43,224 nt of DNA from a virus: positions 1 through 43,224 of IMG/VR virus record IMGVR_UViG_3300035199_001163, one strand, 5' to 3'. Below, in pieces: positions 277 through 43,224 of this stretch. Position numbers and translations under genes: made by a program. Each line of letters begins with the position of its first letter. The first letter of the stretch is position 1. The notes under the pieces were generated by a model, which saw nothing but the letters and a program-made list of their open reading frames with translations, was not told the DNA's origin and made no database searches.

Positions 277-1758
277 TCAGCTCGGCATGTTTCCGGCGAC
301 GTAGTCCTCAGCAAGCTGCCGATCCGCATCGGACAAATGCTCGCCTACGATGATGATGTCGCCAAAGAATCCATTCCAGTAGCGGTCGCTGCCATTGTCG
401 TACCCGATGCGCAACGTCTCCGTGCCCGCAGGATTGAACCCTGTCTGCGTATCCGACCCCACGAGCGAACCATCCTGGTAGAAGTCTTGGTCGCCCTCAC
501 CACCGCGCACCGCCCAGACCGTCCAGTTCTCGAGCGAGTCGTCATTGGCGGGCTCCTCCCACCGAACGGACTCGGAGTTCGTGATGAAGACGAGATCGTC
601 GGAGCCACTCGACAACCAGTAGACCCCCCAATCCTGACCCGGGTGGGTGCCCTGCGAGGCTATCGTCCGGAACCCTGCCGAGTAGCCCGACACATCCTGC
701 AGGTTGACTGCCGCAATCAGCGACACGTCCGACGCCGACCCAATGATTGCTGCGGTCTCTAAGAAGTCGTCCACGCTCTCCAGCCAGTGATGCGTGCCGT
801 CGGTGCGGTAGGTCATGCGGCGCGCGGCTGTGCTCTGCGTTAGATGGTTGCCGTTGCCGCTCTTGTCTTCTACACGCGCAACAGGGTCGCCGTCCGCCGC
901 TACGGGCGTCGTGCCCGCCGCATCCTGGAACAGGGTGGATAGATCGCTCGGGCTGTACCACGCGCCCTCCTGCGCCCCGGCAAACAGATACGCCGGATTC
1001 CAATCCGGGCCACCGCCGGTACCGACGTCGTAGTGCGTCTGTGCACGCGAAAGCGATAGCTCGTGGTTGTAGATCGCGGCCTCGTCGACACGGCCATTGA
1101 AGAAGTCGCCATTGTCACCGGCGGCGATCCGCCCTTCCGTCGATGTGAAGTCAACAGAGCTGGCGGACCCGGACGAGGACAGGGTGCTATCGACGCCGTT
1201 GATGTAGATCGAGACGTCATTGATGCCACGTGCCACAGCGACGACGTGGTTCGGCTCGCCTACAACTAGCGCCCTGTCAGTCGTCGTGTGCGATCTACGC
1301 CCGAACGCGGAGGTATCGGTGTTGTTACCGAACCGCAGTGACACGGTTCTGCTGGGCGTGACCTGCAGCGCAGCTCCGCCATATGTGCTCGCCTGCCAAT
1401 TGGTATCCAGGAACGTCCAGAAGGACTCGAAGTCTCCTGGCTCCACCCACGCTTCCAGGGTGAATGGGAACGTCAGCGATAGCGCGCTGAAATTGGCGTA
1501 TTCGGTCGATCCGTCGAAATTGACGGAGTTCCTCGTGGTGATGAGCGGATCCGCACCGAGGCCGGGTGCATTGACGTACGACGCATTATTACCGTTGCCG
1601 GATGCGTCCTGTGCCAACGTCCCCGACAATTCGTCCAGCCGCCAGTACGCCTCCGGCGAATCCGCGTCCACCTCGTCGCTGTACGAATCGCTCGGTGTGG
1701 GCGCCCCACCCCCACCTGATGAGCCACCAGCCAGCAGGAATCTGCGCGCGATGCTCAC
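277..1758 (-). CDS. tail-associated protein with two LamG/concanavalin-like domains
   Basis: A 493-residue product starting at GTG, with the GTG sharing bases with the upstream TGA (GTGA). Residues of about 30-245 and 255-490 each read as a LamG-type jelly roll. Both carry the D-x-SGNGN signature, the first also has a VNFDGSTEY strand and IYINGV, and the second has FYQDGSLVG. Such domains bind glycans, and as the last gene of the tail operon it probably forms a fibre or tip decoration that touches the host surface. No chaperone or peptidase domain is visible. It does not carry the DGR variable repeat. Confidence 0.75.
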   Translation of the reverse strand: MSIARRFLLAGGSSGGGGAPTPSDSYSDEVDADSPEAYWRLDELSGTLAQDASGNGNNASYVNAPGLGADPLITTRNSVNFDGSTEYANFSALSLTFPFTLEAWVEPGDFESFWTFLDTNWQASTYGGAALQVTPSRTVSLRFGNNTDTSAFGRRSHTTTDRALVVGEPNHVVAVARGINDVSIYINGVDSTLSSSGSASSVDFTSTEGRIAAGDNGDFFNGRVDEAAIYNHELSLSRAQTHYDVGTGGGPDWNPAYLFAGAQEGAWYSPSDLSTLFQDAAGTTPVAADGDPVARVEDKSGNGNHLTQSTAARRMTYRTDGTHHWLESVDDFLETAAIIGSASDVSLIAAVNLQDVSGYSAGFRTIASQGTHPGQDWGVYWLSSGSDDLVFITNSESVRWEEPANDDSLENWTVWAVRGGEGDQDFYQDGSLVGSDTQTGFNPAGTETLRIGYDNGSDRYWNGFFGDIIIVGEHLSDADRQLAEDYVAGNMPS

Positions 1759-2399
1759 AGCCCCTCCACGGCCCGCGCACCGATGATGCGGGCGGTCCCT
1801 ACGCCGGCGAACACGTAGAGGTCCGTACCGCCCGGCGTCGGTTCGGTAGACGGCGACCCCTTAACGGAAACCGGCCAGGTGATAAGCGCCGCAGGTGATC
1901 CCGCGTTTTCCGTGATCTCCATGCTCCACCCCAGAGCGAGACCAGACGCCGGCAACCCCGTGAACGAAAACGTCGTGTCCGCCGTGAGGGTGCAGGTGAT
2001 GTAGGTGCCAAGCCGGAGATCTACAGCGACGGATCCACTAACATTGCCGATATCCTGCACGGTTTCAGCGGGCGACAACGCCACCCAATTGCCATTGACT
2101 TTGCGGACCTCCGCATCCTCGTCCACGACCGGCACCGTCATGCCGTTGGGCGGCGTATAGCCGTACCACCCACCGTTCGACCGGAACGCGATGTCACCCG
2201 CGCTGAAATCGTCCCAGGCGCCGGTCGCCGAATCGACGATGTACGTATCCCCGTCGCTCGGCGAGCCGGGCGGGCCGCCGTTGCTGCGCGACAGGACCCG
2301 CACGCCGCTCTCCAGCCAGCGCAGGCCGAGGTTGTGCGTGACGTGCTTGCTGCCCTGAGACTGGCTGATCTCCGGGATATCGAGGACGGACGTGCTCAT
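1755..2399 (-). CDS. DUF2793-type phage tail protein
   Basis: A 214-residue product whose ATG overlaps the stop of the J-like gene (ATGA). It has the DUF2793 pattern: a conserved region (about 40-110) with GDTYIVDSATGAWDDFSAGDIA, a tryptophan-rich GGWYGY turn, then EVRKVNGNWVAL. The C-terminal half is beta-rich. The family sits next to the tail-tip gene in siphoviruses and gene-transfer-agent-like tails, and is thought to be part of the tip or a short fibre; its biochemical role is not known. The chosen start follows from the 4-base overlap, since longer in-frame ORFs would run deep into the J-like gene. Confidence 0.7.
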   Translation of the reverse strand: MSTSVLDIPEISQSQGSKHVTHNLGLRWLESGVRVLSRSNGGPPGSPSDGDTYIVDSATGAWDDFSAGDIAFRSNGGWYGYTPPNGMTVPVVDEDAEVRKVNGNWVALSPAETVQDIGNVSGSVAVDLRLGTYITCTLTADTTFSFTGLPASGLALGWSMEITENAGSPAALITWPVSVKGSPSTEPTPGGTDLYVFAGVGTARIIGARAVEGL

Positions 2400-5300
2400 A
2401 CGGTGATCTCCACAGCCAGCGGGTCGGAGGCATAACCCCTTCCGACCACATCGCTGATCTGGTAGGCGGTGATGGTGATGTCGTGGGTGCCCGGGTCGAA
2501 GTCCTCGGCCATCTGGGCGCTGGTGTAGTTCGCGCTCTCGCTGGTGGCGCTGATCGTCCGCACCACCGTCCCGCTGTCGTCGGCAATATCGAACTCGATC
2601 TGCAGAGAGGATTCGTTCAGAGCTACGTCCGCGCCGTCGCGCCACTCGCCGCCGTAGCGGGTGCGGCGAATGCACTCGATGGCCAGGTCGCCGTCATGCA
2701 CCGCGCGAAGGTGGACCGGGGAATAAGGTTTAAGTGCGACGCCCTCGAGCTCGGCGGGGAGCACGTCCGCGTTCTCCGGAACGTTGCCGTTTGACACGGC
2801 ACGGTAGTAGAGCGTGTTGCCGATATCGTTCTCATCGATCTGCTCGCGGACCACGCGGCTGTCGACCAGCACGAAATCGTCGCCATCCTCGTGCAGGTCC
2901 ATCGCCCATTCGGTGCCCCACCGGCCGCGCAGCAGGTTGCTGACCTCGTATTCACCACCGCCCTGATCGGCCGCGTCGGCGAAATTGAGCAGCTCCCACC
3001 GGCCCGGCTTGCCATAGGCCGCCAGGTTGCCGTTCTGCAGCACATCATCCTCCGGCAGGCCGGCAAGCGTGCCGTTGCGCATGTCGACGGTGATGACCGT
3101 GCCGCGGTCCCACACGTCCGGGTTGCTGGCCGCGACAGCGGTCGAGACCACACCGTTGACCGCGCGCTGACCCAGAAAAGCCAGCGGCTCGTATTGCGAG
3201 GCATTGCGCGATAGCTGGACAGAGGCATAGGACCAGCCGGCATAGAACGCCCGCGCACCCAGCTCCACGCCGGCGCTGTCGTTCTGCCGGCTCCTGGCCG
3301 GCAGCTCCAGCAGCATCAGCTGCGTCGGCCCCGCCAGCGGAACAGCCTGGCCGGCCTCGGGTGTGTCGCCCCCCACGGCCGCAGATTCGTAGATGCTGGC
3401 GTCATCGCGCAGCGCGCGCACATTCAGCACGCCGGGCAGCCGGTAGTTGATCTCGACCACCCGCACCCGGCGCGTCACGCCCGAGATCTGCAGATTCACC
3501 GCATCGCCCGGGTCGAGATAGATGTAACTCAGCGGCAGCGAGAACTGCAGCTCATTGCGGGACCAGTAAGCCTCGTGCGCGATGATGTCCGCGATCTGCG
3601 CGGCCTCGGTGTTGCCCAGGGCGCCGGCATATTCGATATCGGTCGAGGCCTCGGACTGGATTTCGATGCGCTGATAGAGCTGCTGCGCCCGCTCATAGGC
3701 GTTGCCGGCGTCCTTGTAGTGGACGCGCACCGTCTTCGGCAGCTCGCGACCGGCGCCCCGCTCCAGCGCATAGACCGGCGGCCTCTGGCTCCCCTCCGTG
3801 TGCGCCGCCAGATCCTCCTCGGTGATCGTCGCCACGGGCTCCGACCCACGCAGCGGGAACCGCAGCTTGCCGCCGCTCTCCACCGCATCGAAGAAGTGCG
3901 CAGCGCGCAGCGGGTCGATGGCCTGGCGCCCGCTCATCTGGCGGGTGATCGAGTAGCCGTGGATCGTCTTGGTCAGCTCGGTGACGTCGATATCCGACGT
4001 GGCGAGCCCGTTCTCCTCGCAGATCGCGGACACCACCGAGCCGAGGGTGATCTCGCCCGGCCCGCAGACCGGGCATGTGAACAACCCGCCCGACGTGAGC
4101 ATCGCGCCGGGGATCGAAACGGGATGCACGGCTTTGCCGAATCCGGCATCGATCGAGTCATAGGCGAGGACGTCGTAGGTGTCGTCGTCGTGCAGATCAA
4201 GGACGCGATACCGCCCCTGTGTCGTCTGCTCCGCGATCATGGTGCAAGCGCCCTCGCGCGCCATCCAAGGGCGATTTATCGCCGGGATGCCGGTCCAATG
4301 GTGGACCTGGCTGCCGCTCTGCCGATCGTAGGCGTAGATCTGCTTCTCCGTGGTGCCGTCCGGCCCCACCAGCGCGTAGTAGTAGCGCTCGTCGAATGCG
4401 ACGTTCCACACCAGGTCGTCGCCGGTATACGAGTGCGACCGAATCGGTGTGCTCCCCCCGAACGTCACCACGTAGAGGGTGTTCTCGGGGTTCTGCGCTC
4501 CCGATCCCGGGATGAGGTAGATGGTGTTGGGGGCCTCCGGATCCTCGGCCGCGAACGCCACCTGCGTGCTGCCTGCAGGGCCGAGGAATCCGAGTCGCGC
4601 GCCCTCGATCTCCAGCGACTCGCCAACGTTCGGGAAATAATCGAGCCAGGCCAAGTACACCGTGCTGCTGTCGTTGATACCCGGCAGGGTCACGCCGCAC
4701 GAAAAATTGATCCGCCCAATCGCCGCGCCAGGTCGGTTCGTAATCGGCCGCAGGATCGTAACGACGAACGTCCGCGTCTCGCCGGGATCGCAGAACTTCT
4801 CCTCGAACTGGTAGACGTCGTGCCCGCGCGTCAGGACGTTGCCCTCCAGGCCAACCGTGACCGTCTCGACAATGAGCCGCCCCGAGTCCTCCTGCGAGCG
4901 CTGCGCCTCCGACAGCCGAAACACGCTGTCCCGGCTGGTGACCGGGTAGGAGTCCGATAGATCCGGCCAGTCGCTGATCGGGAACTCCAGCACCTCGTCT
5001 TCGCCGGTTCCGACCACTTCGGCCGTGATATTCGGCAGACGGTTGCCGAACTGCGCCAAGGGAAGGTCGCGGAAAACGATGTAGGCGATGCCGCGATAGG
5101 CCGGCGTCAGGCTCTCGCCGACGTCCGCCTGGATCGTCGGATCCGGCTCCTGATCCTCCGTCCCGAGATACAGCGTCACGCCCTCTTTCAACTTCAACGA
5201 CGCGGCCACCTCTTCCAGGCTGCTCTCATCGTCCACGCTGTAGAACAGTTCCGAGTTCAGCCACAGCTTGCGGATGCCGCAGATGGGGCCGCGGCCCAGC

Positions 5301-5623
5301 GCCATGGCGAAGGTCGCATAGGCCTCCTGCGGTCCGGGCGCCTTGCCCCCGCCGCCCTTGCCGCCGCCTTCCTCAACGCGCACGTCGCCGCCCCAGATCA
5401 GCTGCGTGGCCACCCGATCGCGGCCGTAGGTCCGGATGATCGGCGCGCCGAAGCTGGCGCCGTTGAATATCGAGTCATCGATCCCCGGCCCGCCCGGCGG
5501 CGTCTCCGGGAACAGACCCTGCCCGAGCGCGCTGCCGATCGTGAAACCCAGCGCCGGGTTGCCGAAGAACGCGCCGACGGCAAAGCCGCCGACCGTCAGT
5601 ACCGCCTGCCTTGCGTTAGCCAT
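2396..5623 (-). CDS. tail tip host-specificity protein (J-like / GTA gp15-like)
   Basis: The largest gene in the window, 1075 residues. The N-terminus has a glycine- and alanine-rich hydrophobic stretch (about 8-38), followed by the FNGASFGAPIIRTYGRDR segment typical of this family and a Gly/Lys linker. The middle contains the beta-rich hub region, including TARVRVVEINY-like strands near the centre, and the C-terminal part has fibronectin-like strands. It follows DUF2460, DUF2163 and NlpC/P60 genes, the tail-tip order seen in gene transfer agents and related siphoviruses, where this protein closes the tail and contacts the receptor. Its start overlaps the end of the peptidase gene. Confidence 0.85.
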   Translation of the reverse strand: MANARQAVLTVGGFAVGAFFGNPALGFTIGSALGQGLFPETPPGGPGIDDSIFNGASFGAPIIRTYGRDRVATQLIWGGDVRVEEGGGKGGGGKAPGPQEAYATFAMALGRGPICGIRKLWLNSELFYSVDDESSLEEVAASLKLKEGVTLYLGTEDQEPDPTIQADVGESLTPAYRGIAYIVFRDLPLAQFGNRLPNITAEVVGTGEDEVLEFPISDWPDLSDSYPVTSRDSVFRLSEAQRSQEDSGRLIVETVTVGLEGNVLTRGHDVYQFEEKFCDPGETRTFVVTILRPITNRPGAAIGRINFSCGVTLPGINDSSTVYLAWLDYFPNVGESLEIEGARLGFLGPAGSTQVAFAAEDPEAPNTIYLIPGSGAQNPENTLYVVTFGGSTPIRSHSYTGDDLVWNVAFDERYYYALVGPDGTTEKQIYAYDRQSGSQVHHWTGIPAINRPWMAREGACTMIAEQTTQGRYRVLDLHDDDTYDVLAYDSIDAGFGKAVHPVSIPGAMLTSGGLFTCPVCGPGEITLGSVVSAICEENGLATSDIDVTELTKTIHGYSITRQMSGRQAIDPLRAAHFFDAVESGGKLRFPLRGSEPVATITEEDLAAHTEGSQRPPVYALERGAGRELPKTVRVHYKDAGNAYERAQQLYQRIEIQSEASTDIEYAGALGNTEAAQIADIIAHEAYWSRNELQFSLPLSYIYLDPGDAVNLQISGVTRRVRVVEINYRLPGVLNVRALRDDASIYESAAVGGDTPEAGQAVPLAGPTQLMLLELPARSRQNDSAGVELGARAFYAGWSYASVQLSRNASQYEPLAFLGQRAVNGVVSTAVAASNPDVWDRGTVITVDMRNGTLAGLPEDDVLQNGNLAAYGKPGRWELLNFADAADQGGGEYEVSNLLRGRWGTEWAMDLHEDGDDFVLVDSRVVREQIDENDIGNTLYYRAVSNGNVPENADVLPAELEGVALKPYSPVHLRAVHDGDLAIECIRRTRYGGEWRDGADVALNESSLQIEFDIADDSGTVVRTISATSESANYTSAQMAEDFDPGTHDITITAYQISDVVGRGYASDPLAVEITV

Positions 5624-19873: not shown

Positions 19874-19893
19874 GCGCAGGCACCTGCGGCACG

Positions 19894-20193
19894 ATGGCTG
19901 ACCATCGCCCAAACCAGGAATACGCCTTGCCGGAACTTCTGCAGTATCTCTTCCCGTCCCCCGCAGTCACACTCACCACCTGCGGCCTGCTGCTAGACAT
20001 CGGCGGCGTCGTTCTGATCTTCAAGTACGGGCTTCCCGCCAGCATCAATCGCTCCGGCATGATCGGGCTTGGAACCCCGGATGAGACTGGCGAGCACAAG
20101 GCCGCTGCGCGCAGGTACGACCGCTGGGCGCGCGTCGGGCTCGTGATGCTCATCGCGGGATTCGCCCTGCAGATGCTGGCCTCATACGCCTAG
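19894..20193 (+). CDS. small two-TM membrane protein
   Basis: A 99-residue plus-strand gene set inside a minus-strand island. Two hydrophobic segments (about 22-44 and 80-98) flank a cytoplasmic loop with GTPDETGEHKAAARRYDRW. Similar small inner-membrane proteins occur in many proteobacterial genomes, with no known function. It diverges from the sulfotransferase and converges with the glycosyltransferase, overlapping its stop by 3 bases, which suggests separate acquisition. Confidence 0.6.
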   Translation: MADHRPNQEYALPELLQYLFPSPAVTLTTCGLLLDIGGVVLIFKYGLPASINRSGMIGLGTPDETGEHKAAARRYDRWARVGLVMLIAGFALQMLASYA

Positions 20194-20858: not shown

Positions 20859-21541
20859 GTAGCCACCATTGGTAGAAGACGCTGCAACGGAACGGACGTG
20901 GTGCCGTCGATGACGCTGAGCGGCGAGACGTTCAGCAGCTCGATGCCGTGCTCGTCCCGCAGGCCGACGCACAGCGCCTCCAGCGCCGCGCGCTTGGCGG
21001 ACCACAACGGGTCGTCGCGCCACAGCTTCGCCGGCACATTGCCGGTGCAGTAGCGACCGCTCGCACCGTCGCGTAGGTCGAAGCCCACCAGCACGATCCG
21101 ACGCGCGCCCCAGGCGCGTGCCAGCTCGATGGCCTGCACGCCCGAGTTGGCTCCGCCACCACCGGCGCCGAAATGGATGTAATTGTCAGGATCCGGAGTC
21201 GGGCCTGCGCAGTACCGTCCCGGTACAAGTTCCACATCGGCAAGGCTCTCCGCATCCACCTGGGCTGCGAAGCGGCGCCCGCTGCAGCGCGCGCGCACGT
21301 CCGGCAGGTACACCTCCCACCAGGCCGCATCCGCTGCGTAGATCGCGGCCGGCTGCCCCTCCCGCGCGAATACCGTGCCGACGGCGATGGTCCGAGAGCC
21401 CGGGAGCCGATGCAGCGGAATCGTCCTGATGCTGGTGCCCGGCGCCACCACCCAGGCGGTGCGGTCCACGTCCGTCAGCGTCAACGGCGAGGCCGGCACC
21501 CCACCCGCTTTCGCCGGCGAAAGGCAGGCGGCGCTATCCAT
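20855..21541 (-). CDS. MptE/DUF115-like protein, first gene of modification island
   Basis: A 228-residue product. ANSGVQAIELARAWGARRIVLVGFDLRDG matches the MptE-like/DUF115 core and is parallel to the protein at 18678-19325. The N-terminal part lacks the usual full Rossmann entry but has WVVAPGTSIRTIP. It is coupled to the downstream glycosyltransferase. The codons for SPAKA near the N-terminus lie in a perfect 16-bp palindrome that recurs at 34165. Confidence 0.6.
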   Translation of the reverse strand: MDSAACLSPAKAGGVPASPLTLTDVDRTAWVVAPGTSIRTIPLHRLPGSRTIAVGTVFAREGQPAAIYAADAAWWEVYLPDVRARCSGRRFAAQVDAESLADVELVPGRYCAGPTPDPDNYIHFGAGGGGANSGVQAIELARAWGARRIVLVGFDLRDGASGRYCTGNVPAKLWRDDPLWSAKRAALEALCVGLRDEHGIELLNVSPLSVIDGTTSVPLQRLLPMVAT

Positions 21542-31318: not shown

Positions 31319-31732
31319 ATGGACATCACAGAGATCCGGCTTAAAAATCTGCGCCGTGTCCGCGACGAACGGTACGGCGGCAGCAGCGCTGCGTTGGCGC
31401 ACGCCATCAAGCGCTCTCCGAGCCAGATCAAGCAGTGGCTTCTCGGCATCCGCAACCCATCGGAGAAGAGCGCCCGACACATCGAGGAGCGGCTCGGCCT
31501 GCCCTATGGCTGGATGGACACGCCGCCCGGATATCAGGACCACCGGCGCACACCCGAGGGTGGAGTCGCGGATGCACCCGACACCATCCGCATCGGCCAG
31601 CTACCCGTCGCCACTCAGAACCTCGTGCGCGACCTCGTCGACGGCCTGGTCGCGCGGCAGCTCACCGACAGCGAACTCGAGCTGCTGACCACCATCGTCA
31701 ACCACATGACCAGCCGGCGCCGCAGCGCCTGA
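31319..31732 (+). CDS. CI-like prophage repressor without a peptidase domain
   Basis: A 137-residue product. An XRE-type helix-turn-helix occupies about 1-65 (IRLKNLRRVRDERYGGSSAALAHAIKRSPSQIKQWLLGIRNPSEKSARHIEERLGLPYGWMD). The C-terminal ~70 residues are helical (DSELELLTTIVNHM) and can dimerise, but the S24 LexA-like peptidase with its Ser-Lys pair is absent. The prophage should therefore not be induced by RecA-driven self-cleavage of this protein. It diverges from the YdaS/Cro gene. Confidence 0.75.
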   Translation: MDITEIRLKNLRRVRDERYGGSSAALAHAIKRSPSQIKQWLLGIRNPSEKSARHIEERLGLPYGWMDTPPGYQDHRRTPEGGVADAPDTIRIGQLPVATQNLVRDLVDGLVARQLTDSELELLTTIVNHMTSRRRSA

Positions 31733-32825: not shown

Positions 32826-32855
32826 TCAGGGAAGCTTTTGTTGAGCGACCCTGCA

Positions 32856-33152
32856 ATGACCGACTCGCTGACCCGCTACCTGAACCACCCCCGCCGCGCC
32901 GACATTATCGAGCGCACGCTCGACGTCCCCGCCATCCTCCGCAACGCCCCCGAGCGCGTCCGCTGCCCGCAGCGCGCCGCGCGGCACTGCGCCGAAGTCG
33001 CGCACTACCACATCGTCCGCAGCGTTCGCCTGCACGCAGTCGGCCACACCATCGCGGCCGACCGCGCCCGCCGCATCGCCAACGCCGCCGACCGCCTGGC
33101 GCAGCGCTATCGGAAGCAGACGGACACCCAGCCGCAGCGGGTGGCGGCATGA
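32856..33152 (+). CDS. hypothetical early protein, 98 aa
   Basis: First gene of the right arm. It is basic and helical with several Arg and His (RADIIERTLDVPAILRNAPERVRC, AHYHIVRSVRLHAVGH). No recognised family. ATG 32856 has no clear ribosome site; TTG 32841 has AGGGAAG 6 bases before it and would add 5 residues. A DNA-binding role is possible but not shown. Confidence 0.55.
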   Translation: MTDSLTRYLNHPRRADIIERTLDVPAILRNAPERVRCPQRAARHCAEVAHYHIVRSVRLHAVGHTIAADRARRIANAADRLAQRYRKQTDTQPQRVAA

Positions 33153-33646
33153 GCCACGACTACATCGAGCCGCCGCGCAACACGTGGAAGCGATTGGCCG
33201 TGTTTCTGGCTTTCTGGCTGCCGGTAGCTGCCGTCTCGGCGCTCGGCATCCGCTACGTCCTACCGGCCGAATGCCAGGAGCCCGCAGACGATCAGGACGC
33301 CCCCGAGAATGTCGAACGCAACACCAGTGAGGTGGGCGTTCCGCGGGTACCCACTGATCTTGTAGGTGCCGCCATCAGCGCCCGTCACGACCCGCACCTG
33401 CAAAGGGTGATTGCGCCACTCGCCGAGCCCAACAAAGAAAGCGCCGAGCGCCACCAATGCCACTGGCCCGTTGGGCAGCTGCAAGTCGATGGTGAGCGCT
33501 GCGAATACGCATACAGCACCGAACGCCATCACCACTTTGTACCAGGCGTTCAGCGAAAGGTTCTTCAAAAACTCCATAAACCTTCGGCCCCCTCTCCGCT
33601 TGACGTCGAGTTTACGCATACCGGCGCGCAGCAGGTGGCGCCATGA
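33149..33646 (+). CDS. membrane protein whose C-terminal half is antisense to another gene
   Basis: A 165-residue ORF that starts and ends with the operon's usual ATGA overlaps. Residues 1-45 look real, with one hydrophobic segment (RLAVFLAFWLPVAAVSALGIRYVLP). The remainder, from about 37, lies antisense to the minus-strand membrane gene (33260-33577) and reads as featureless His/Gln-rich sequence. A gene interrupted by insertion, or an overprinted pair, are both possible. Confidence 0.4.
   Translation: MSHDYIEPPRNTWKRLAVFLAFWLPVAAVSALGIRYVLPAECQEPADDQDAPENVERNTSEVGVPRVPTDLVGAAISARHDPHLQRVIAPLAEPNKESAERHQCHWPVGQLQVDGERCEYAYSTERHHHFVPGVQRKVLQKLHKPSAPSPLDVEFTHTGAQQVAP
33260..33577 (-). CDS. 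small membrane protein on the opposite strand
   Basis: A 105-residue product with three hydrophobic segments (about 10-25, 32-48, 85-104) and the loop FVGLGEWRNHPLQVRVVTG. The pattern GEWxNHP followed by a terminal GILGGVLIVCGLL-type segment is that of a conserved small inner-membrane protein. The ATG at 33577 lies behind GAAGG. It runs against its neighbours and is flanked by 22-bp near-identical repeats, so it looks like a moron inserted into the operon. Confidence 0.65.
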   Translation of the reverse strand: MEFLKNLSLNAWYKVVMAFGAVCVFAALTIDLQLPNGPVALVALGAFFVGLGEWRNHPLQVRVVTGADGGTYKISGYPRNAHLTGVAFDILGGVLIVCGLLAFGR

Positions 33647-33891
33647 GCTTCACCCACGCCAGCTACGCCCGCGCCATCGAGCAGGCGCTCCCGCACCTCC
33701 ACAACCGCCTGCAGTACCTGACGCGCACCGGGCGGTTCCACCCGAAGCTGCGCGACGAAGTGCTTGCCGCGCTGGAGAGCTGCCAGGCGCACCACGAAGC
33801 CGCAGCGAAGACCGCTCAGCGTGCCGAAGCCCGCATGGAAGACGTCGAGGCGAGCGCCCACCAGCAGCTGGAGGCCAGCCATGGACATTAG
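33643..33891 (+). CDS. hypothetical helical protein, 82 aa
   Basis: A His- and Ala-rich coiled-coil-like product (AIEQALPHLHNRLQYLTRTG, DEVLAALESCQAHHEAAAK). No recognised family. Overlaps the upstream stop by 4 bases and the next gene by 11. Confidence 0.55.
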   Translation: MSFTHASYARAIEQALPHLHNRLQYLTRTGRFHPKLRDEVLAALESCQAHHEAAAKTAQRAEARMEDVEASAHQQLEASHGH

Positions 33892-34150
33892 CGCCAACTC
33901 GCTCGGCCACCCGCTCGCCGTCATGTCCGAGGCCGCCGACCACTACGAAGGCGTGCACCAGTACGACCTGGCCGCGCGCATGCGCAACGCCCGCAGCATG
34001 GTCAGCCTGCACGACGAGACGCTGGCCATCCTCCGCCGCTCCTACTCCGACGAGCTGGCCAAGAACGCCAGGCTGAAGGCCGACGTCGCCGAGCTGATCG
34101 CCGAGCGCGACGAGCTGCGGCAGGCCCTGCAGGCGGAGCGGCAACTGTGA
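33881..34150 (+). CDS. hypothetical coiled-coil protein, 89 aa
   Basis: The C-terminal half is a clear coiled coil (SDELAKNARLKADVAELIAERDELRQALQAERQ), with a helical N-terminus (AVMSEAADHYEGVHQYDLAARM). No recognised family. Its stop overlaps the GTG of the next gene (GTGA). Confidence 0.55.
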   Translation: MDISANSLGHPLAVMSEAADHYEGVHQYDLAARMRNARSMVSLHDETLAILRRSYSDELAKNARLKADVAELIAERDELRQALQAERQL

Positions 34151-34530
34151 GCGCCGCCCCGCATCTTTCGCCGGCGAAAGTCCACGCCAGCGCCTACCGA
34201 TGCCGCTGCCGGCACTGCCGCACGCGCACCACGCTGCGGCATCACCCGGAGTGGTACATCCGCCGCCGCTACGCCCGCTGCCCCCGCTGCAAGCGCGACG
34301 CCCTGAGCGTGGACAGCCACCGCACCAGCGGCCGCGAGCACCGCCGCGTCACCCGCCACTGCGGCCACTACCCGTTTCCCCACCGCCGCGCCTCGCTGCT
34401 CTGCGAGCACGGCGTCATGGGCCGCGCCGGCTTCAGCTACTGGAGCCGCTACGAGGCCGAGCACATCCATTTCGAGCAATGGCTCGCCGGCGAGCAGGCC
34501 GAGCCCTATCTGCAGGAGCACGCGGCATGA
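34147..34530 (+). CDS. zinc-ribbon protein, 127 aa
   Basis: Starts at GTG. Two zinc-binding pairs are CRCRHC and CPRCKRD in the first third, and HCGHYPF near the middle adds a third possible ligand set. The C-terminus is helical and aromatic (GFSYWSRYEAEHIHFEQWLAGEQ). It is probably a nucleic-acid-binding regulator, like other small zinc-ribbon proteins in this arm. No family name is certain. Confidence 0.6.
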   Translation: MSAAPHLSPAKVHASAYRCRCRHCRTRTTLRHHPEWYIRRRYARCPRCKRDALSVDSHRTSGREHRRVTRHCGHYPFPHRRASLLCEHGVMGRAGFSYWSRYEAEHIHFEQWLAGEQAEPYLQEHAA

Positions 34531-35147
34531 CGCGGACTTGTATCCGCTTCAACGATTCGATGGTCCGGGCCATTCTCGACGGCCGGAAGACGCAGACGCG
34601 GCGCGTCGTTAAAGCGCAACCCCGCAGCCGAGCCGATATAGGGATTTGCGGTCGCGGCTTACCGTTTATCCGCGTCAGCACAGGGAAAAATGAGGTCTGC
34701 CCTTACGGTCGACCCGGTGCCTTGGTGTGGGTGCGTGAGACATGGCAGGAGTTCTTTGCCGATGAGCTGCCCGCAGGTCGGCCCACGCCGATCGCTGGAC
34801 GCATGGGGATACCGGCGCAGCCAGAGCGGCGCGCCGTCGTCGCCTACCGAGAAGATGGCGAAGTACCCCCACACCCGGAGCATGGCGAGGCCGTCTGGGC
34901 GCCCTCTTGCCGCATGCCGCGCTGGGCATCCCGCCTGACACTTCGGCTGAAGGGCATAGGCATCGAACGCCTGCGCAGCATCACCGATGCCGACGCCCTC
35001 GCCGAGGGCTACTCCAGCGCGTCCGCATTCCTGGCCGGCGAATGGGCTGCGCCCCTCGCCGACCGTAACCCCTACGTCTGGGTCCTCGACTTCGACCCGA
35101 TTCACGCGAACGTCGATGACGTCATCGCCCAGCAGGAGCACGCCTAA
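34527..35147 (+). CDS. ASCH-like phage protein
   Basis: A 206-residue product. FNDSMVRAILDGRKTQTRRVV starts an ASCH-type fold (the MVxAILxGxKTQTRR pattern), followed by YGRPGALVWVRETWQEF, PSCRMPRWASRLTLRLKGIGIERLRSITDADALAEG and NPYVWVLDF at the end. This protein is widespread in temperate phages and likely binds RNA or a modified base. Its start overlaps the previous stop. Confidence 0.7.
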   Translation: MTRTCIRFNDSMVRAILDGRKTQTRRVVKAQPRSRADIGICGRGLPFIRVSTGKNEVCPYGRPGALVWVRETWQEFFADELPAGRPTPIAGRMGIPAQPERRAVVAYREDGEVPPHPEHGEAVWAPSCRMPRWASRLTLRLKGIGIERLRSITDADALAEGYSSASAFLAGEWAAPLADRNPYVWVLDFDPIHANVDDVIAQQEHA

Positions 35148-36622
35148 TGCCCGACACCACCCACCCCACCGAAGCCGTCGCCACCCGACTGGCGCTGGCC
35201 AGCATCGACCGCGACCCCGCCCAGTGGCGCAAGTATTTCGACGAGGCCGCGCTGCACGAGCTGGCAGATAGCATCCGCGCGCACGGCATCATCCAGCCCA
35301 TTGTCGTGCGGCCCGTCACGGCCACTGACGGCACGCGCCTGGTCGAGCCAGCGGACTACCTGATCGTGGCCGGCGAGCGCCGCTGGCGCGCGTCGCACAT
35401 CGCCGGCCTGGCGGAAGTGCCCGCCATCATCCGCACCGACCTGGACGCCGACGAGGTCATGGTCCTGCAGGTGCTGGAAAACCTCCAGCGCGAAGGCCTG
35501 ACACTCCCCGAGACGGCCGCCGGCGTGCACGCCCTGGTCGGGCAGATCGGCACCGCCAAGGCCGCCCAACAGCTCGGCAAGAGCGAGGCATGGGTCAGCA
35601 AGCACGCCCGCATCGGCGAGCTGGACCCGCGCGTGCAGCAGCTGGTGGACGACGGCGCCCTCACCAGCGCCGACCTCGCGCACGACGTGCACCGCCTGCT
35701 GCAGGACTGCGAGCGCGGCGAGGCCATCGGCATGACCTGGCTGCGCGAGCGCATCGGCAACGTGCTGCAGCTGGCCAGCAAGGGCGAGCTGCGCCGCGCC
35801 CAGGTCCGCGACCGCATCAGCCACACCGCCGAAGACATCAAGCGCCACGAGCGCGCCGAACAGATCCGCAACGGCCAGGCCAGCGAAGCCGCCGCCGAGC
35901 CGCCCGCTCCCAAGCCGCCGGCCGAGCAGCCGCCCAGCACCGGCAGCGCACCGCTGCTCAGTGGCGCCGAGGCCCCGGAACCGGCCCCCGCCCAACCGCC
36001 GCCCGAGCCGCCCGCGCCGCCCGTCGACTCCGTCTTCGAGTCGCGCCTGGCCGCCCGCAAGCAGCTTGAGCACGACATAACGCCCGTCGTTGCTAGCCTC
36101 ACCCGCCGCATTCTCGCCGGCATGGGCCTGAACGTCGCCGCGCTCTATCCCGACGTCAACACCGACGACGACGACGAGCTGCTCCACAACTACGACCCGG
36201 ACGTCGACCCCATCTACGTCGGCGTCGACTACCCCACCCTCGAAAGCGGGCGCCCCATCCCCAAGGCCGAGGATGCGAGCCTGGAGATCACCCTCACCCT
36301 CAACCACCAGCAGGCCGAGCGCCTCGCCCAGTGGATCGAATCCGGCGGCCTCACCGGCCAGCCCGCCAGCGACCTGATGGACGGCGAGCAAGCCCTCGCC
36401 CGCTTCGTGCAGCACGGCATCCGCCGCGTGAAGGGCGAGCAGATTCGCGGCTCCCTGCTGCGCGCCCACTACATCACCTACTGCATCAACCGCGGTGTGG
36501 AGCCCGTCTACTCCGAATCCGCCTTCGGCCAGGCCGTGCGCGACGCCGGCTACGGCATGAAGCGGACGGCCGACGGGCGCATCTACCTGGACTGCGCCGT
36601 GGCCGGAGTAGTGCCGGCATGA
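35147..36622 (+). CDS. ParB-like nuclease/partition protein with C-terminal wHTH
   Basis: A 491-residue product. The ParB/RepB domain (1-165) has the clear signature GIIQPIVVRPV, ADYLIVAGERRWRASHIAGL and ENLQREGLT, then the HTH (AQQLGKSEAWVSKHARIG). A long Pro/Ala linker (about 250-305) follows. The C-terminus (about 455-485: YITYCINRGVEPVYSESAFGQ) reads like the winged helix of D5-type primases. No ParA is nearby, so it is more likely a regulator or nuclease than a partition system. Confidence 0.75.
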   Translation: MPDTTHPTEAVATRLALASIDRDPAQWRKYFDEAALHELADSIRAHGIIQPIVVRPVTATDGTRLVEPADYLIVAGERRWRASHIAGLAEVPAIIRTDLDADEVMVLQVLENLQREGLTLPETAAGVHALVGQIGTAKAAQQLGKSEAWVSKHARIGELDPRVQQLVDDGALTSADLAHDVHRLLQDCERGEAIGMTWLRERIGNVLQLASKGELRRAQVRDRISHTAEDIKRHERAEQIRNGQASEAAAEPPAPKPPAEQPPSTGSAPLLSGAEAPEPAPAQPPPEPPAPPVDSVFESRLAARKQLEHDITPVVASLTRRILAGMGLNVAALYPDVNTDDDDELLHNYDPDVDPIYVGVDYPTLESGRPIPKAEDASLEITLTLNHQQAERLAQWIESGGLTGQPASDLMDGEQALARFVQHGIRRVKGEQIRGSLLRAHYITYCINRGVEPVYSESAFGQAVRDAGYGMKRTADGRIYLDCAVAGVVPA

Positions 36623-36843
36623 GCACGCAGACCTACAGCTGCCCCGAATGCCAGCGGCTGATCGACGTCCGCATCCGCACCGACTGCGGCGTCTACAGCA
36701 CCGAGTTCTTCGACGCCCGCGGCTACCAGCGCGCCACCTGCGACTGCGGCCTGCCGCTCTACGAAGCGCTGGCGCAGCGTCGGCTTCAACCGTTTCCAGC
36801 CACCACCACCGAGCCACCCGACAGGAGCACCCCATGCAGCTGA
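36619..36843 (+). CDS. zinc-ribbon protein, 74 aa, upstream of the DGR
   Basis: CPEC (8-11) and CDCG form a possible zinc site, with FFDARGYQRATC between. It starts inside the ParB-like stop (ATGA) and overlaps the variable protein's start by 10 bases, so it is translated with the DGR target. No recognised family. Confidence 0.6.
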   Translation: MSTQTYSCPECQRLIDVRIRTDCGVYSTEFFDARGYQRATCDCGLPLYEALAQRRLQPFPATTTEPPDRSTPCS

Positions 36844-37373
36844 GCATTTCCATCGACCGCACCGGGCCGTACGGCCTGAGCATCCACATCCCGGACCTCG
36901 CAGAGCTAGCCCCACGCGCAGAGCCGACACCCGACCACCAGACGCCCGACGGGCGCTTCCGCCTCCTCGATAGCCAGGGCCGCACAAGCGACAGCACACC
37001 CGAGCTGGTGCACGACACCACCACCGGCCTCATCTGGACGGCCGCGGAAAGCCTCACCAGCGAGCGCGTCAACCACGCCACCGCCAGCGAGGCCGCAAGC
37101 GCTCTGCGCTACATGGGCGCCGACGACTGGCGCCTGCCGACGATGCACGAGCTGCTGAGCATCGTCGACTACGGCCGTACCGACCCGGCCATCGACACCG
37201 CGGCGTTTCGCTGCCACGCCCGGCCGTACTGGTCGTCGTCGCTCTTCGCGGGCGATTCCGACGGCGCCTGGATCGTCGGCTTCCGCGACGGCTACTCCCT
37301 CATCCACGACCGCGGCGACGACCTCGCCTTTGTGCGTGCGGTGCGCGGCCCGGTGCGCGCGGCCAGTCAGTAA
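36834..37373 (+). CDS. DGR variable protein with DUF1566/Lcl-type C-terminal domain
   Basis: A 179-residue product behind an AGGAG site. The C-terminal domain (about 55-177) has the DUF1566 core: TTGLIWTAA, DDWRLPTMHELLSIVDYGRTDP, and PYWSSSLFAGDSDGAWIVGF ending VRAVRGPV. DUF1566 is one of the known C-type-lectin-like DGR target folds. The last 46 residues are encoded by the variable repeat (37232-37367). No signal peptide, membrane segment or virion-fibre repeats are visible, unlike phage Mtd-type targets. Confidence 0.85.
   Translation: MQLSISIDRTGPYGLSIHIPDLAELAPRAEPTPDHQTPDGRFRLLDSQGRTSDSTPELVHDTTTGLIWTAAESLTSERVNHATASEAASALRYMGADDWRLPTMHELLSIVDYGRTDPAIDTAAFRCHARPYWSSSLFAGDSDGAWIVGFRDGYSLIHDRGDDLAFVRAVRGPVRAASQ
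37232..37367 (+). repeat. DGR variable repeat (VR), 136 bp
   Basis: Aligns without gaps to the template at 37894-38029. There are 14 differences, all opposite TR adenines: 12 lie in 7 AAC codons and one each in a CAC and a GAC codon. No other TR base differs. The first 29 bases and last 42 bases are invariant, and alignment ends at 37368, where VR has C and TR has G (the expected distinction of IMH and IMH*). A 5-bp inverted repeat (ATCAG-CCTTT-CTGAT, 37373-37387) follows VR at the DGR cruciform position. Confidence 0.92.
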
Positions 37374-37403
37374 TCAGCCTTTCTGATCTTCGCCGGAGGC
37401 GCC

Positions 37404-37838
37404 ATGTCCTTTGAACTCCCGCCCATCGTGAAACAGGCCGAACGGCTGATGGTGGAAATCGAGGAAGCGGTCCGCCGCTTCCCGCGCTACCACAAGTACA
37501 CGCACGGCGCGGAGTTGCGGACGGCCGCCATGCGCGTTACCCGCCTCACGCATCGCGCCTGGCGGGACCGGCGCCACCAGGCGCACTGGCTGGACGAGCT
37601 GGTATGGGCGATCGACGAACTCAAGATCACCATGCAGCTCGGCCAGCGCGTGCGCGCCTACGCAAGCCTCCGGCAGTTCGAGCACCTCGCCCGCCAGGCA
37701 CGCCAGCTCGGCAAGCAGGCGGGCGGCTGGCGCAAGCAGCAGCACCCCAAGGGCCAGAATCCAGCGCCGTCCGCGGCGTCGGAGCGCGCCCAGACACTGA
37801 GTACCCGCACCGCCTCCGCGCAGGAGGCCACGCCATGA
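37404..37838 (+). CDS. avd: DGR accessory variability determinant (Avd-like)
   Basis: A 144-residue product. RFPRYHKYTHGAELRTAAMRVTRLTHRAWRD, then DELVWAIDELKITMQLGQRVRAYASLRQFEHL and QLGKQAGGWRKQQ, match the Avd four-helix bundle, which oligomerises and binds the RT and template RNA. A polar C-terminal tail is added. It has GGAGG before its ATG, and its stop overlaps the RT start by 4 bases, which indicates coupled translation. Confidence 0.88.
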   Translation: MSFELPPIVKQAERLMVEIEEAVRRFPRYHKYTHGAELRTAAMRVTRLTHRAWRDRRHQAHWLDELVWAIDELKITMQLGQRVRAYASLRQFEHLARQARQLGKQAGGWRKQQHPKGQNPAPSAASERAQTLSTRTASAQEATP

Positions 37839-39220
37839 CGAAGCCGCGCTACCCCCAGGGCTGCCCGGCCGGGTCCCAAGCGTGCGGGGATGCGTCGTCG
37901 TCGCTCTTCGCGGGCGATTCCGACAACGCCTGGATCGTCAACTTCCACAACGGCAACTCCAACATCCACAACCGCGACAACGACAACGCCTTTGTGCGTG
38001 CGGTGCGCGGCCCGGTGCGCGCGGCCAGTGAGTGTCAGGGTGCCGTCAGCTTCGCCGGCCTGCATCGCGCCTGGCAGGCCGCGCGGCGTCACAAACGGCC
38101 CAGCCGCAACCAGCTCGCCTTCGAGGCCCACTGGGCAGACAACCTGCTGTCCCTGGAAGCCCGCATAGAGGCAGGCAACTGGTCGCCCGCGCCCAGCACC
38201 TGCTTCATCGCCAGCCGCAACAAGGCGCGCGAGATCCACGCGCCGGACTTCGCCGACCGCGTCGTGCACCACTGGCTGGTTCCGCAGCTCGAGCGCATCT
38301 TCGAGCCCGGCTTCATCCACGACAGCTACAGCAACCGCCCCGGCAAGGGCACGCACGCCGCCGTCATCCGCCTGCAGCGCTTCGTGCGCCAGGTGCACAG
38401 CGGCCAGGGCGGCGGCTGGTATCTGCAGCTGGACATCGCCAACTTCTTCAACGCCATCCACCGGCCCACCCTCTGGCGCATCCTCAAGCGCCGCATGGCC
38501 GTCCATGGCGTGCCGGGCACCACGCAGCGCGTCGCCCACGCCCTGCTGCGCCGGCCGCCCACCGCCCAGGGCGTGCACTACCGCGCCACCCGCCAGGAGC
38601 GCGCCCAGGTGCCGCCCCACAAGCGCCTGCACAACGCCGGCCGCGGGCGCGGCCTACCCATCGGCAACCTCTCCAGCCAGTTCTTCGCCAACGTCTACCT
38701 CGACCAGCTCGACCAGTTCGTCAAGCACCAGCTGCGCGCCAGGCGCTACATCCGCTACGTCGACGACTTCGTCCTCATCCACCACGACCGCGCCCAGCTG
38801 GAGCAATGGCAGCACGCCATCGAGCACTTCCTGCACACCGAGCTGCGCTTGCGCCTCAAGTCGGAGATCAAGCTGCAGCCGCTGAGCGCCGGCATCGACT
38901 TCCTCGGCTACATCGCCCACCCCACGCACACCCGCGTCCGGCGCCGCGTCATCAGCCACGCCCGTGAAGCCCTGCACCGCATCGAGCGCGACCACTTGCG
39001 CGGCAACCGCCTGCTACTCACCCCCGAGCAGCTCCGCCGCGCCGCGTCCACCTGGAACAGCTACCGCGCCCACTTCCAGCACGCCAACGCCTGCGGCCTC
39101 ACTGACGGCTTCCACCGGCGCCACCCCTGGCTGCACGCCATCACCGCCCGCCGCCGCCTCGACTACCGGCTGGAAGGCCGGCGCATTGCCATTCCTGTAT
39201 CGGAGAAACAAGCTCCATGA
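37835..39220 (+). CDS. DGR reverse transcriptase
   Basis: The ORF gives 461 residues from ATG 37835 (AGGAGG 7 bases upstream). The RT core begins about residue 70, with ARRHKRPSRNQLAFEAHW and DRVVHHWLVPQLERIFEPGFIHDSYSNRPGKGTH. Catalytic Asp200 lies in LDIANFF and the active site is YVDD at 308-311. LPIGNLSSQ (275-282) is the motif typical of DGR and group II-like RTs. Residues 1-66 encode a leader plus TR; no in-frame ATG or GTG just after TR was found, so either the TR peptide is part of the enzyme or a non-standard start is used. Confidence 0.9.
   Translation: MTKPRYPQGCPAGSQACGDASSSLFAGDSDNAWIVNFHNGNSNIHNRDNDNAFVRAVRGPVRAASECQGAVSFAGLHRAWQAARRHKRPSRNQLAFEAHWADNLLSLEARIEAGNWSPAPSTCFIASRNKAREIHAPDFADRVVHHWLVPQLERIFEPGFIHDSYSNRPGKGTHAAVIRLQRFVRQVHSGQGGGWYLQLDIANFFNAIHRPTLWRILKRRMAVHGVPGTTQRVAHALLRRPPTAQGVHYRATRQERAQVPPHKRLHNAGRGRGLPIGNLSSQFFANVYLDQLDQFVKHQLRARRYIRYVDDFVLIHHDRAQLEQWQHAIEHFLHTELRLRLKSEIKLQPLSAGIDFLGYIAHPTHTRVRRRVISHAREALHRIERDHLRGNRLLLTPEQLRRAASTWNSYRAHFQHANACGLTDGFHRRHPWLHAITARRRLDYRLEGRRIAIPVSEKQAP
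37894..38029 (+). repeat. DGR template repeat (TR), 136 bp, inside the RT reading frame
   Basis: The donor for mutagenic homing. It contains 25 adenines, 16 of them in 8 AAC codons; AAC is the codon type that yields many amino acids but no stop after adenine mutation. It is in the same translational phase as VR and also in frame with the RT ORF (RT codons 20-65), so it reads SSSLFAGDSDNAWIVNFHNG there. TR should be transcribed as an RNA copied by RT with Avd. Confidence 0.92.
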
Positions 39221-39684
39221 GCCTCGCCGACCGCCTCATCAAGCGCATCACCCGCCGCCCGCCGGACTTCACCGTCGGCGACCCCGCCGCGCCGTACCTG
39301 CGCCGCTGGTGGGTCATCCCGCGCAACCGCGTCTTCAACGTCTACCTGCACGAATTCCTGCGCGACGACGACGACCGGGCCCTGCACGACCACCCGTGGC
39401 CGTGGCTCAGCATCATGCTGCGCGGCGAGTACATCGAGCACACCATCGCCGCCGGCGGCATCAACCACGCCAAGCGCCACCAGGCCGGCGGCTTCCGCGC
39501 CCACGGCCCGAACTACGCCCACCGCCTGGCACTCGCCGACCACGGCCGGCCCGCATGGACACTGTTCATCACCGGCCCGCGCTTGCGCGAGTGGGGCTTT
39601 CATTGCCCATTCGCCGGCTGGGTGCACTGGCAGAACTTCACGTCCACTGACGGCCGGCAGGTCGGCAAGGGATGCGACCAATGA
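39217..39684 (+). CDS. cupin-like protein coupled to the RT
   Basis: A 155-residue product. The His pairs in ALHDHPWPWLSIMLRG-YIEHT and the following AHGPNYAHRLALAD fit a double-stranded beta-helix (cupin) with a metal site, and CPFAGWVHWQNF ends it. The ATG overlaps the RT stop (ATGA). Such small cupin-like proteins occur elsewhere in phages outside DGRs, so a role in the retroelement is only suggested by coupling. Confidence 0.65.
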   Translation: MSLADRLIKRITRRPPDFTVGDPAAPYLRRWWVIPRNRVFNVYLHEFLRDDDDRALHDHPWPWLSIMLRGEYIEHTIAAGGINHAKRHQAGGFRAHGPNYAHRLALADHGRPAWTLFITGPRLREWGFHCPFAGWVHWQNFTSTDGRQVGKGCDQ

Positions 39685-40894: not shown

Positions 40895-41100
40895 GCTACA
40901 TGCACCCCAACACCGAGCGCTATCCGGTCACCCCATTCGCACACGCCGGCGACTTGTACTGGTGCCAGCTGGTTGAGCACAACACCGGCGACCTGCGCAT
41001 CGGCCCGCTCGGCGAAGACCGGCCGGCCGACGACGCCGACGGCCTGCGCCACGCCGCCATGCGCGCGCACCTGGAAGCTGGACAACGGAGTGGCCAATGA
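40891..41100 (+). CDS. hypothetical 69-aa protein
   Basis: A short soluble product (YPVTPFAHAGDLYWCQLVEHNTGDLRIGPLG). No recognised family. Overlaps both neighbours by 4 bases. Confidence 0.55.
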   Translation: MSYMHPNTERYPVTPFAHAGDLYWCQLVEHNTGDLRIGPLGEDRPADDADGLRHAAMRAHLEAGQRSGQ

Positions 41101-41327
41101 CCAGCACCTACTTCGGCCTGCTCGCCGAGTTTGACGGCCGGGCCCACATCCCCCTCGACGAAGTCGCCCCGCGCTACTTCGGCCTCAGCCCGCGCGAAGC
41201 CAAGCGCCGCGCCGCCAGCCGCACGCTGCCGTGCCCGGCCTTCCGGACGATGGGGCAGAAGTCGCCCTGGCTGGTCTCGGCAGACGATCTGGCAAAGCTG
41301 ATCGACGCGCGGCGGCAGGCGTCTTAG
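41097..41327 (+). CDS. PrtN-like (pyocin activator) family protein
   Basis: A 76-residue product. The pattern AEFDGRAHIPLDEVAPRYFGLSPREAKRRAASRTLPCPAFRTM-SPWLVSADDLAKLIDARR is that of the PrtN pyocin activator family: a small helix-turn-helix domain that activates pyocin or phage promoters. Here it may act on the integrase or early promoters. It overlaps the preceding gene by 4 bases. Confidence 0.75.
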   Translation: MTSTYFGLLAEFDGRAHIPLDEVAPRYFGLSPREAKRRAASRTLPCPAFRTMGQKSPWLVSADDLAKLIDARRQAS

Positions 41328-42168: not shown

Positions 42169-43224
42169 CTACAGCTGGCGCACGCCCTCCGGCCGCAGGT
42201 TCGTGTAGCGCTTCAGCTCGTCCCAGCTCTCGTGGAGCGTGAACTGCGTCACTTCGTGGATCTGATAGCCGCGCTCGAAGAGCCGCGACGTCGCCTCGTG
42301 CCGCAGGTCGTGGAAGCGTAGATCGGGGATCCCCAGCACTTTGCACGTCCGCGTCCAGTTCGACGACACGCTCTTCGCATCAAAGGGGAATATGCGATCG
42401 CCAGGCTGCGGGTGCTCCGGCTTCGGCTGCCGGTCGATGATCGCCCTCGCCTCCGGCGTCAGCGCGAAGCGGCGGTGGTTCCCTTTCTTCGCCCGCGGGT
42501 GCTTGGCATCGCGCAGTAGGCAGGTCTTCCCGTCGTAGTCCACCCACTCGATGCGGCAGATCTCCGCCTCGCGCCTGGCGCTGTGGATCGCGAACCACAT
42601 GATCTCGCGCATCGGGATCCGCGCCCGGCCGTCGCGGCGGGAAAGGTAATCGTCCAAGCGCGCGAGCTCGTCATCCGTCGGCCGGCGGTCGCGGCGCCTC
42701 GAGGCCCCGATCAGCCGCAGCTCGCGACAGGCCGTGCGCGCCTCGAGCACCACCTCCGGCCGCACCGGCAGCCCGCGCACGCTCGCGGCCGCGCGCAGCA
42801 CCACGCCGATGTAGGTCAGGTCCGAGCCCGCCGTCGCCGGCTGCACACCGCCGGCGCGCCGCTGTCGCACGAAATCGATCAGATGCTGGCGCGTCAGCTG
42901 CAGCGCGTCCAGATCCGCGATCGGGTAGTTCTGCAGCCGCTTCAGCACCGCGTCCTTCGAGCGCTCCCACTGCCCCTCGCCGCCGAAGTCGCGCACGTAC
43001 CAGCGGATCAGCTCGCCCAGAGAAGTGTCGCCCGCCTGCACCTGCTGGAGCGCCGCCGGGTCCTCCAACTCCACCTCGCGCCGCTTGCTCCAGTCGACCG
43101 CAGCGGTGCGACGCGAGAACGTCTGCGACTCCTGGTGCACAATTCGCCCATGTCGCTTAAGCCGAACCGTCGCCGTATACCCTGTGCTGCCGTCCTTACG
43201 ACGGCGGGCGCGTATCGTTGCCAA
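42169..43224 (-). CDS. int: tyrosine recombinase (phage integrase)
   Basis: 351 residues, starting at TTG on the last bases of the window; a start further upstream cannot be excluded. The SAM-like core-binding domain is about 64-165, and the catalytic domain follows with Arg217 (HSARREAE), His305 and Arg308 (FHDLRHE), His331 (TLHESW) and Tyr340 (KRYTNL). All key residues are present. It would insert and excise the prophage, but no attachment core is visible because the upstream side lies outside the window. Confidence 0.88.
   Translation of the reverse strand: MATIRARRRKDGSTGYTATVRLKRHGRIVHQESQTFSRRTAAVDWSKRREVELEDPAALQQVQAGDTSLGELIRWYVRDFGGEGQWERSKDAVLKRLQNYPIADLDALQLTRQHLIDFVRQRRAGGVQPATAGSDLTYIGVVLRAAASVRGLPVRPEVVLEARTACRELRLIGASRRRDRRPTDDELARLDDYLSRRDGRARIPMREIMWFAIHSARREAEICRIEWVDYDGKTCLLRDAKHPRAKKGNHRRFALTPEARAIIDRQPKPEHPQPGDRIFPFDAKSVSSNWTRTCKVLGIPDLRFHDLRHEATSRLFERGYQIHEVTQFTLHESWDELKRYTNLRPEGVRQL

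Follow-up and report, generated by a model that had tools for sequence, protein, structure and literature searches.

Phage diversity-generating retroelements (DGRs) are generally taken as diversifiers of receptor-binding tail proteins. The early-arm class described here breaks this rule, because the diversified protein is small, soluble and encoded among early and lysogeny genes. The stretch of DNA analyzed (the window, 43,224 nt) is an entire virus record and contains a complete DGR (Table 1).

Table 1. Coordinates of the DGR and of neighboring features in the window.
Feature	Position	Strand	Remarks
DGR target (variable protein), 179 aa	36834..37373	+	Predicted Lcl_C/DUF1566 C-type-lectin fold, residues 58-171
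Variable repeat (VR)	37233..37367	+	14 differences from TR, every one opposite a TR adenine
VR end, stop codon and following stretch	37362..37403	+	Corresponds to the family motif GCCGGTCAGTAATTGGCCTTTTTG
avd	37404..37838	+	PF22296 (bAvd); phrog_3206 'Avd protein of DGR'
Template repeat (TR)	37895..38029	+	Within the RT coding frame; frame shared with VR
DGR reverse transcriptase (RT)	37835..39220	+	phrog_1423, E 1.2e-98
ParB-like gene	35147..36622	+	PF02195; operon shared with target
74-aa Cys-rich (CPEC...CDC) ORF	36619..36843	+	Between ParB-like gene and target, overlapping both
'Cysteine dioxygenase'-like gene	39217..39684	+	phrog_4786; 4-nt overlap with RT
Tyrosine integrase	42169..43224	-	phrog_1, PF00589; reaches the record end
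Tail-module end (Laminin_G_3, DUF2793 and gpJ-like proteins)	280..5623	-	Undiversified, without VR

The mismatches between VR and TR all fall at template adenines (14 of 14, against 25 adenines among the 133 columns; P = 1.5e-12 by the hypergeometric test), a bias that rules out a chance repeat. The script used for these repeats recovered the annotated repeats of phage BPP-1 to within 15 nt, and target frames were chosen by the count of AAC and AAT codons in the TR. The VR is C-terminal, ending 6 nt before the end of the target ORF, and 17 of its codons contain a template adenine, for a theoretical repertoire of up to about 1e14-1e15 variants, calculated at about 7e14 proteins. A repeat scan of the whole record found no second VR, other positions giving background scores, and the idea of a remote second VR within one of the tail genes was rejected accordingly. 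The target ORF begins with ATG downstream of a Shine-Dalgarno-like AGGAG, while the ATG of the RT overlaps the avd stop codon (ATGA) and is preceded by AGGAGG. Avd matches PF22296 above the cut-off (E 1.5e-10) as well as phrog_3206 (E 4.1e-20), and in the RT tree described below the window RT is nested among RTs of loci that bear TR and VR.

The original prediction had described the target as a 179-residue DUF1566 protein lacking a signal peptide or membrane segment, and each part of this description holds. The sole Pfam domain is Lcl_C (PF07603, formerly DUF1566; E 9.8e-26), matched over profile positions 2-117 of 117 with 90.8 bits against a curated cut-off of 34.9. No hydrophobic segment was found in the window target, for which the best 19-residue Kyte-Doolittle mean is 0.45 and the best 12-residue mean at the N-terminus 0.95. 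The same prediction had proposed modeling of the C-terminal fold. The AlphaFold2 model, built with an alignment of 61 relatives, has a mean pLDDT of 87.6, with blocks spanning residues 41-170 at or above 93 and residues 1-40 at low confidence, near 60. For this model, the best structural matches (Foldseek, VIA-align) are the C-terminal domain of Legionella Lcl (Z 12.7) and Bdellovibrio Bd2740 (Z 11.3); further down, among many tied rows, come two DGR targets, Mtd-I1 (Z 8.7) and TvpA (Z 8.4). The target is thus predicted to have a C-type-lectin fold with the VR at its C-terminus. HbP1, a sequence-profile match, is an entry of the Lcl C-terminal domain, and a literature search on HbP1 returned nothing relevant.

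A lectin fold would also suit a component of the virion, i.e., a tail-tip or fiber-tip adsorption protein made from the early arm, assembled late and functioning in the manner of Mtd, the classic DGR target of an isolated phage and a receptor binder by demonstrated role. The best matches among viral models include both DUF1566 proteins and long fiber-like proteins with collagen repeats or S74 domains, a weak hint in favor of such a function. Because the C-type-lectin/Lcl_C domain occurs in fiber-like proteins too, the fold leaves the choice between fiber and soluble use undecided.

The virus is a lambda-like temperate siphophage, with the target on the early/lysogeny arm, at the integrase side. 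Structural and replication genes occupy the minus strand, encoding Laminin_G_3, DUF2793 and gpJ-like tail proteins, the tape measure, major tail protein, head protease, portal and large terminase, together with DnaB, O-like and CII-like proteins. Two genes between portal and terminase on this strand (18681-21023) match phrog_4603 (alpha-2,3-sialyltransferase) and phrog_1962 (glycosyltransferase). The plus-strand arm opens with a weak HTH repressor-like ORF (31319-31732), and a homologue of the PrtN-like pyocin activator (PF11112, E 1.1e-17) lies near the integrase at 41097-41327. This gene plan resembles that of lambda, the plus strand presumably corresponding to the side with N, the recombination genes and int. 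Plus-strand genes from 32838 to 39684 are closely packed, with successive junctions of -4, -4, -128, -4, -4, -1, -4, -10, +30, -4 and -4 nt. Since the target sits in the middle of this chain of overlapping genes, it is very probably made together with the early and lysogeny genes. A scan for promoters and terminators gave no more sites than in shuffled sequence.

Two positional claims of the original prediction need amendment. The target had been placed between a ParB-like gene and avd; it does share an operon with the ParB-like gene, but the 74-aa Cys-rich ORF, which has no Pfam match, intervenes. It had also been called far from the tail genes, as is true of the linear record (25.7 kb from target to major tail gene) but not of the circular map, on which joining of the ends would bring the tail-fiber-like gene at 280-1758 within roughly 6 kb of the target, although it lies beyond the integrase and is read from the other strand. 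This proximity favors a virion protein, against which stands the location of the target in an overlapping early operon that runs opposite to the structural genes.

Close relatives of the target were found neither by tblastn against a phage collection nor by a single-sequence scan of viral_contigs, and a single-sequence scan with the RT likewise found none. Alignment-based RT scans, using the window RT and those of seven isolated phages, each yielded a best 80 loci from viral_contigs and from genome_contigs. After loci L118-L174 (except L120 and L165) had been set apart as not window-like by RT identity, these best 80 of each scan gave a window-like group of at least 105 loci, in at least 89 clusters at 95% RT identity. 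Among the matches listed, the relatives are mostly phages and prophages of Xanthomonadales, with named hosts mostly from Dyella, Rhodanobacter, Stenotrophomonas, Xanthomonas, Pseudoxanthomonas, Luteimonas and their kin. The 89 listed clusters contain 183 targets, with 2446 of 2533 mismatches at template adenines, and 182 of the targets lie on the RT strand; the sole exception is a VR opposite the RT strand at L058:14160-14275 (coordinates on its minus strand).

Where at least 5 kb of upstream sequence was available (76 listed clusters), two targets occur in 54 clusters, three in 19 and one in 3. With its single target the window may therefore be a reduced case, as 73 of these 76 relatives have two or three. 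The 176 complete targets listed have length quartiles of 148, 178 and 202 aa and 171 are of 300 aa or less, ORFs being taken from the longest start, so that some lengths and signal-like matches are over-extended. Pfam and PHROG scans covered the window target and 114 of the 176 complete targets, hand-picked from the first 148 listed. Lcl_C was matched at E<=1e-3 by 114 of these 115 proteins, and among the 12 PHROG families matched none is named for a fiber. One target, at L016:8284-8910, has an N-terminus with a tape-measure-like motif (YHSGGIAGLRPDEVPAILQPGE); this is the sole match to a tail family (1 of 115) and again a weak hint of a virion role, against which the presence of two or three small targets in most listed relatives counts. 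No known defense or effector domain is fused to the scanned targets, which carry Lcl_C and, in one remote second target (L057:1159-1893), PF13876 (Phage_gp49_66, E 1.2e-30) ahead of Lcl_C.

The C-type-lectin fold, for which extracellular ligands are common, raises the further possibility that the target is exported or released, by a non-classical route or on lysis, and binds at or outside the cell surface, e.g., as an adsorption blocker or decoy. For signal peptides, a hydropathy rule was applied in groups that follow the RT tree, the 'chromosomal-type' targets being defined as the 39 outside both phage groups. Chromosomal-type targets are mostly exported by this measure (32 of 39 with signal-like N-termini), a point in favor of such a function, whereas signal-like N-termini occur in only 6 of 176 listed window-like targets and lipobox-like sequences in 0 of 176; in a Pseudomonas/beta group each was found once among 54. 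Moreover, no one gene accompanies the targets across most loci, and an exported binder appears quite improbable.

Gene neighborhoods, searched within ±10 kb for relatives of named reference proteins, are consistent with an early-arm position. Integrase relatives lie downstream in 55 of the 89 listed clusters and upstream in 0, while genes resembling CI (6), CII (16) and O (11) occur upstream only. Relatives of the window terminase, portal and tape measure are absent within 10 kb in all 89 clusters, and those of gpJ are present in 2. A single conserved partner gene beside the targets was sought and is lacking in most loci, the commonest neighbor cluster (integrase by sequence) occurring in 28.

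These neighborhoods also bear on whether the target might be a cytoplasmic protein that serves the phage's own regulation or replication, perhaps with the ParB-like protein, its diversity being a form of bet-hedging over host factors. The operon overlapping with the ParB-like gene in the window, the ParB-like genes near 20 of the 89 listed relatives, the fusion of the L057 target to an early-type phage domain and a report that DGRs tune cyanobacterial regulatory proteins (PMC7517822, as far as that source was available) would all fit. ParB-like genes are nevertheless near only a minority of the relatives, in 15 of 20 cases on the other side, downstream of the RT, and no other gene recurs in the majority of loci. 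Use by the phage for its own regulation or replication thus seems unlikely.

Sequence comparison shows that the DGRs of the window's relatives are active, the window itself being a single record, since close relatives differ mainly at template-adenine sites. Among 46 pairs with RT nucleotide identity of at least 88%, which overlap and so are non-independent, the non-identical pairs sum to differences at 730 of 1218 VR sites opposite template adenines and at 98 of 4087 other VR sites, with 712 of 10324 sites differing in the remainder of the sequence compared. For six pairs the RTs are identical and no difference was seen anywhere; these apparently represent the same sequence in two collections. 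Pseudomonas phages phPA-G (Portugal) and Haboob (Denmark) have RTs that are 98.7% identical and identical TRs, and their two VRs differ at 12 of 34 and 13 of 32 template-adenine sites, and at 0 of 69 and 0 of 68 others.

Placement of the TR in the RT coding sequence, in the frame of the VR, gives the RT an N-terminal copy of the template hairpin. Overlap of TR and RT ORF defines cassette group 3 of DiGReF (PMC3521204, in the part of the source available). In all 87 listed relatives having a TR, the RT reading frame starts upstream of the TR and runs through it uninterrupted, as compared with an open frame in 53% of random 135-nt stretches; the RT reads the TR in the VR frame in 82 of the 87 and has an ATGA-type start in 85. 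That the overlap is near-universal and frame-matched suggests selection. At 37362-37385 in the window and around 176 targets from relatives, the consensus GCCGGTCAGTAATTGGCCTTTTTG is conserved over and 3' of the stop codon, and may possibly be a cis element for homing in the window-like group. A 5-bp hairpin follows the window VR. Stems of at least 6 bp are found 3' of the VR in 15 of 182 cases in relatives and 8 of 182 shuffled sequences, barely more than by shuffling, so that a hairpin seems doubtful as the family-wide cis element; the sequence motif is conserved instead.

A similar arrangement is found in isolated phages. By tblastn, a related RT is present in 136 phage records. Among the 20 examined, 7 place the DGR outside the tail module and carry a pair of targets of 118-220 aa (phPA-G, Magia, LPPA56, Cruim01, Haboob, QDWS and SC_8_H2H8, the context of the last, hardly annotated record being judged from target size and gene order only). 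Lcl_C is matched at E<1e-3 by 9 of the 10 targets scanned (of 14), all below the Pfam cut-off. In Haboob, a single strand carries, in this order and interspersed with hypothetical genes, those for CI, a glycosyltransferase, two targets, Avd, RT, a methyltransferase, Bet, a nuclease and integrase. Some isolates have methyltransferase or host-nuclease-inhibitor genes near the DGR. The Magia record annotates its own lectin-fold protein as a potential DGR target; a literature search on the RT of this Burkholderia phage found nothing. The other 13 isolates examined have one target each of 253-770 aa, in the tail module, with structural names on or adjoining the target in 11 and missing in VP585 and phiWae15. 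The original prediction of a small soluble protein of the early/lysogeny arm that is not a fiber is thus sustained, and the arrangement recurs in relatives and in seven isolated phages.

An unrooted RT tree of 100 rows, including 24 window-like rows chosen at random from the 89 clusters, places the window in a 25-row clade (support 100/100), apart from the 12-row tail-module clade. The seven early-arm isolates belong to a 32-row clade (100/99) and 12 of the 13 tail-module isolates to a third (100/100), with Bacteroides F2 apart on a long branch. By this tree, the early-arm, small-target arrangement occurs in two RT lineages, which fits either two gains or one gain with losses. Position of the window RT outside the clade of 12 of the 13 tail-module DGRs speaks against a virion component, which overall seems an unlikely role for the target.

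The reading we favor is that the target is a diversified intracellular, non-virion binder that functions in phage-phage or phage-host conflict; we hold it to be probable, with the conflict role a conjecture. The cytoplasmic binder of the original prediction draws support from the few export signals in the group, the overlapping operon and the contrast with the 13 tail-module phages, which together point to an intracellular location. The protein, we infer, acts inside the cell, is expressed early or in the lysogen, stays out of the virion and benefits the phage through a partner of one of the kinds given below. RT-Avd would copy TR RNA, as part of the RT message, making errors at its adenines, and the resulting cDNA would replace the VR and so alter the C-terminal hairpin. 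Different variants would then be carried by different lysogens or progeny, and selection would retain whichever of them can bind an intracellular partner that is both useful and changing. The leading candidate for this partner, though less likely than not, is some component of a rival phage as it enters the lysogen (superinfection); next comes a variable host defense factor (anti-defense), and some other intracellular ligand or use is rather improbable. Conflict is proposed because a partner must itself vary for repeated diversification to be worthwhile, because the early/lysogeny arm usually houses superinfection and anti-restriction genes, and because methyltransferase or host-nuclease-inhibitor genes accompany the DGR in some isolates. 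Weighing against the preferred reading are the compatibility of the Lcl_C fold with a fiber tip, the tape-measure match of L016 and the nearness of the tail fibers on the circular map. More tentatively, and with some doubt, temperate phages of Xanthomonadales, Pseudomonas and Burkholderiales might each carry, on the lysogeny/early arm, one to three antibody-like cytoplasmic DGR binders, from two DGR lineages, as an anticipatory repertoire selectable among lysogens against competing phages or host defenses. If true, this would be a prophage-borne form of somatic-hypermutation immunity.

A literature search, mostly at the level of titles and abstracts, found no published description of an early-arm DGR class. 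As far as available, Roux et al. 2021 (PMC8144416) give tail proteins as most of the viral targets in three clades, and write of 'non-structural or cellular targets' elsewhere. DUF1566 is reported as a common DGR target domain (PMC4159848 and PMC6642488, both available in part). Two targets are present in about 13% of DGR cassettes, with Treponema denticola and Stenotrophomonas cited as having up to eight (PMC10743442, in the portion available). One Xanthomonadales genome, Stenotrophomonas sp. SKA14, has several DUF1566 DGR targets, which the available part of the source describes without phage context (PMC6642488).

Among characterized systems, the DGR of Bordetella phage BPP-1 (mtd-avd-TR-brt) has the same order of target, avd, TR and RT as the window, adenine-specific VR changes and a target with a C-type-lectin fold. 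It differs in that the tail module encodes its target, a tail protein of 381 aa, whereas that of the window is a soluble protein of 179 aa from the early arm, and the window RT belongs to another clade and has the TR inside its frame. The window thus lacks the features of an Mtd-type tail-fiber DGR, having no long target in a tail module and an RT outside the tail-module clade. Haboob, phPA-G, Cruim01, LPPA56 and SC_8_H2H8 (Pseudomonas), Magia (Burkholderia) and QDWS (Shewanella) resemble the window in having the DGR outside the tail module and small Lcl_C-like targets beside avd, with an annotated integrase downstream in 4 of the 7. They differ from it in having two targets each, a separate RT lineage, an RT that reads the TR in another frame and Lcl_C scores below the Pfam cut-off. 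The closest conceptual precedent is the hypothesis of DGR immunity, in which cytosolic VR proteins bind viral proteins, with superinfection exclusion as precedent (Belalov et al. 2023, PMC10053308, as far as available). The systems considered there were picked by neighbors with immune Pfam domains, and the available text describes no phage early-arm class and does not contain DUF1566, PF07603 or ParB. In isolated, culturable phages, the early-arm class offers a tractable system in which to ask what an intracellular hypervariable phage binder recognizes, and makes that hypothesis of prokaryotic immunity, as set out in the part of the source available, directly testable.
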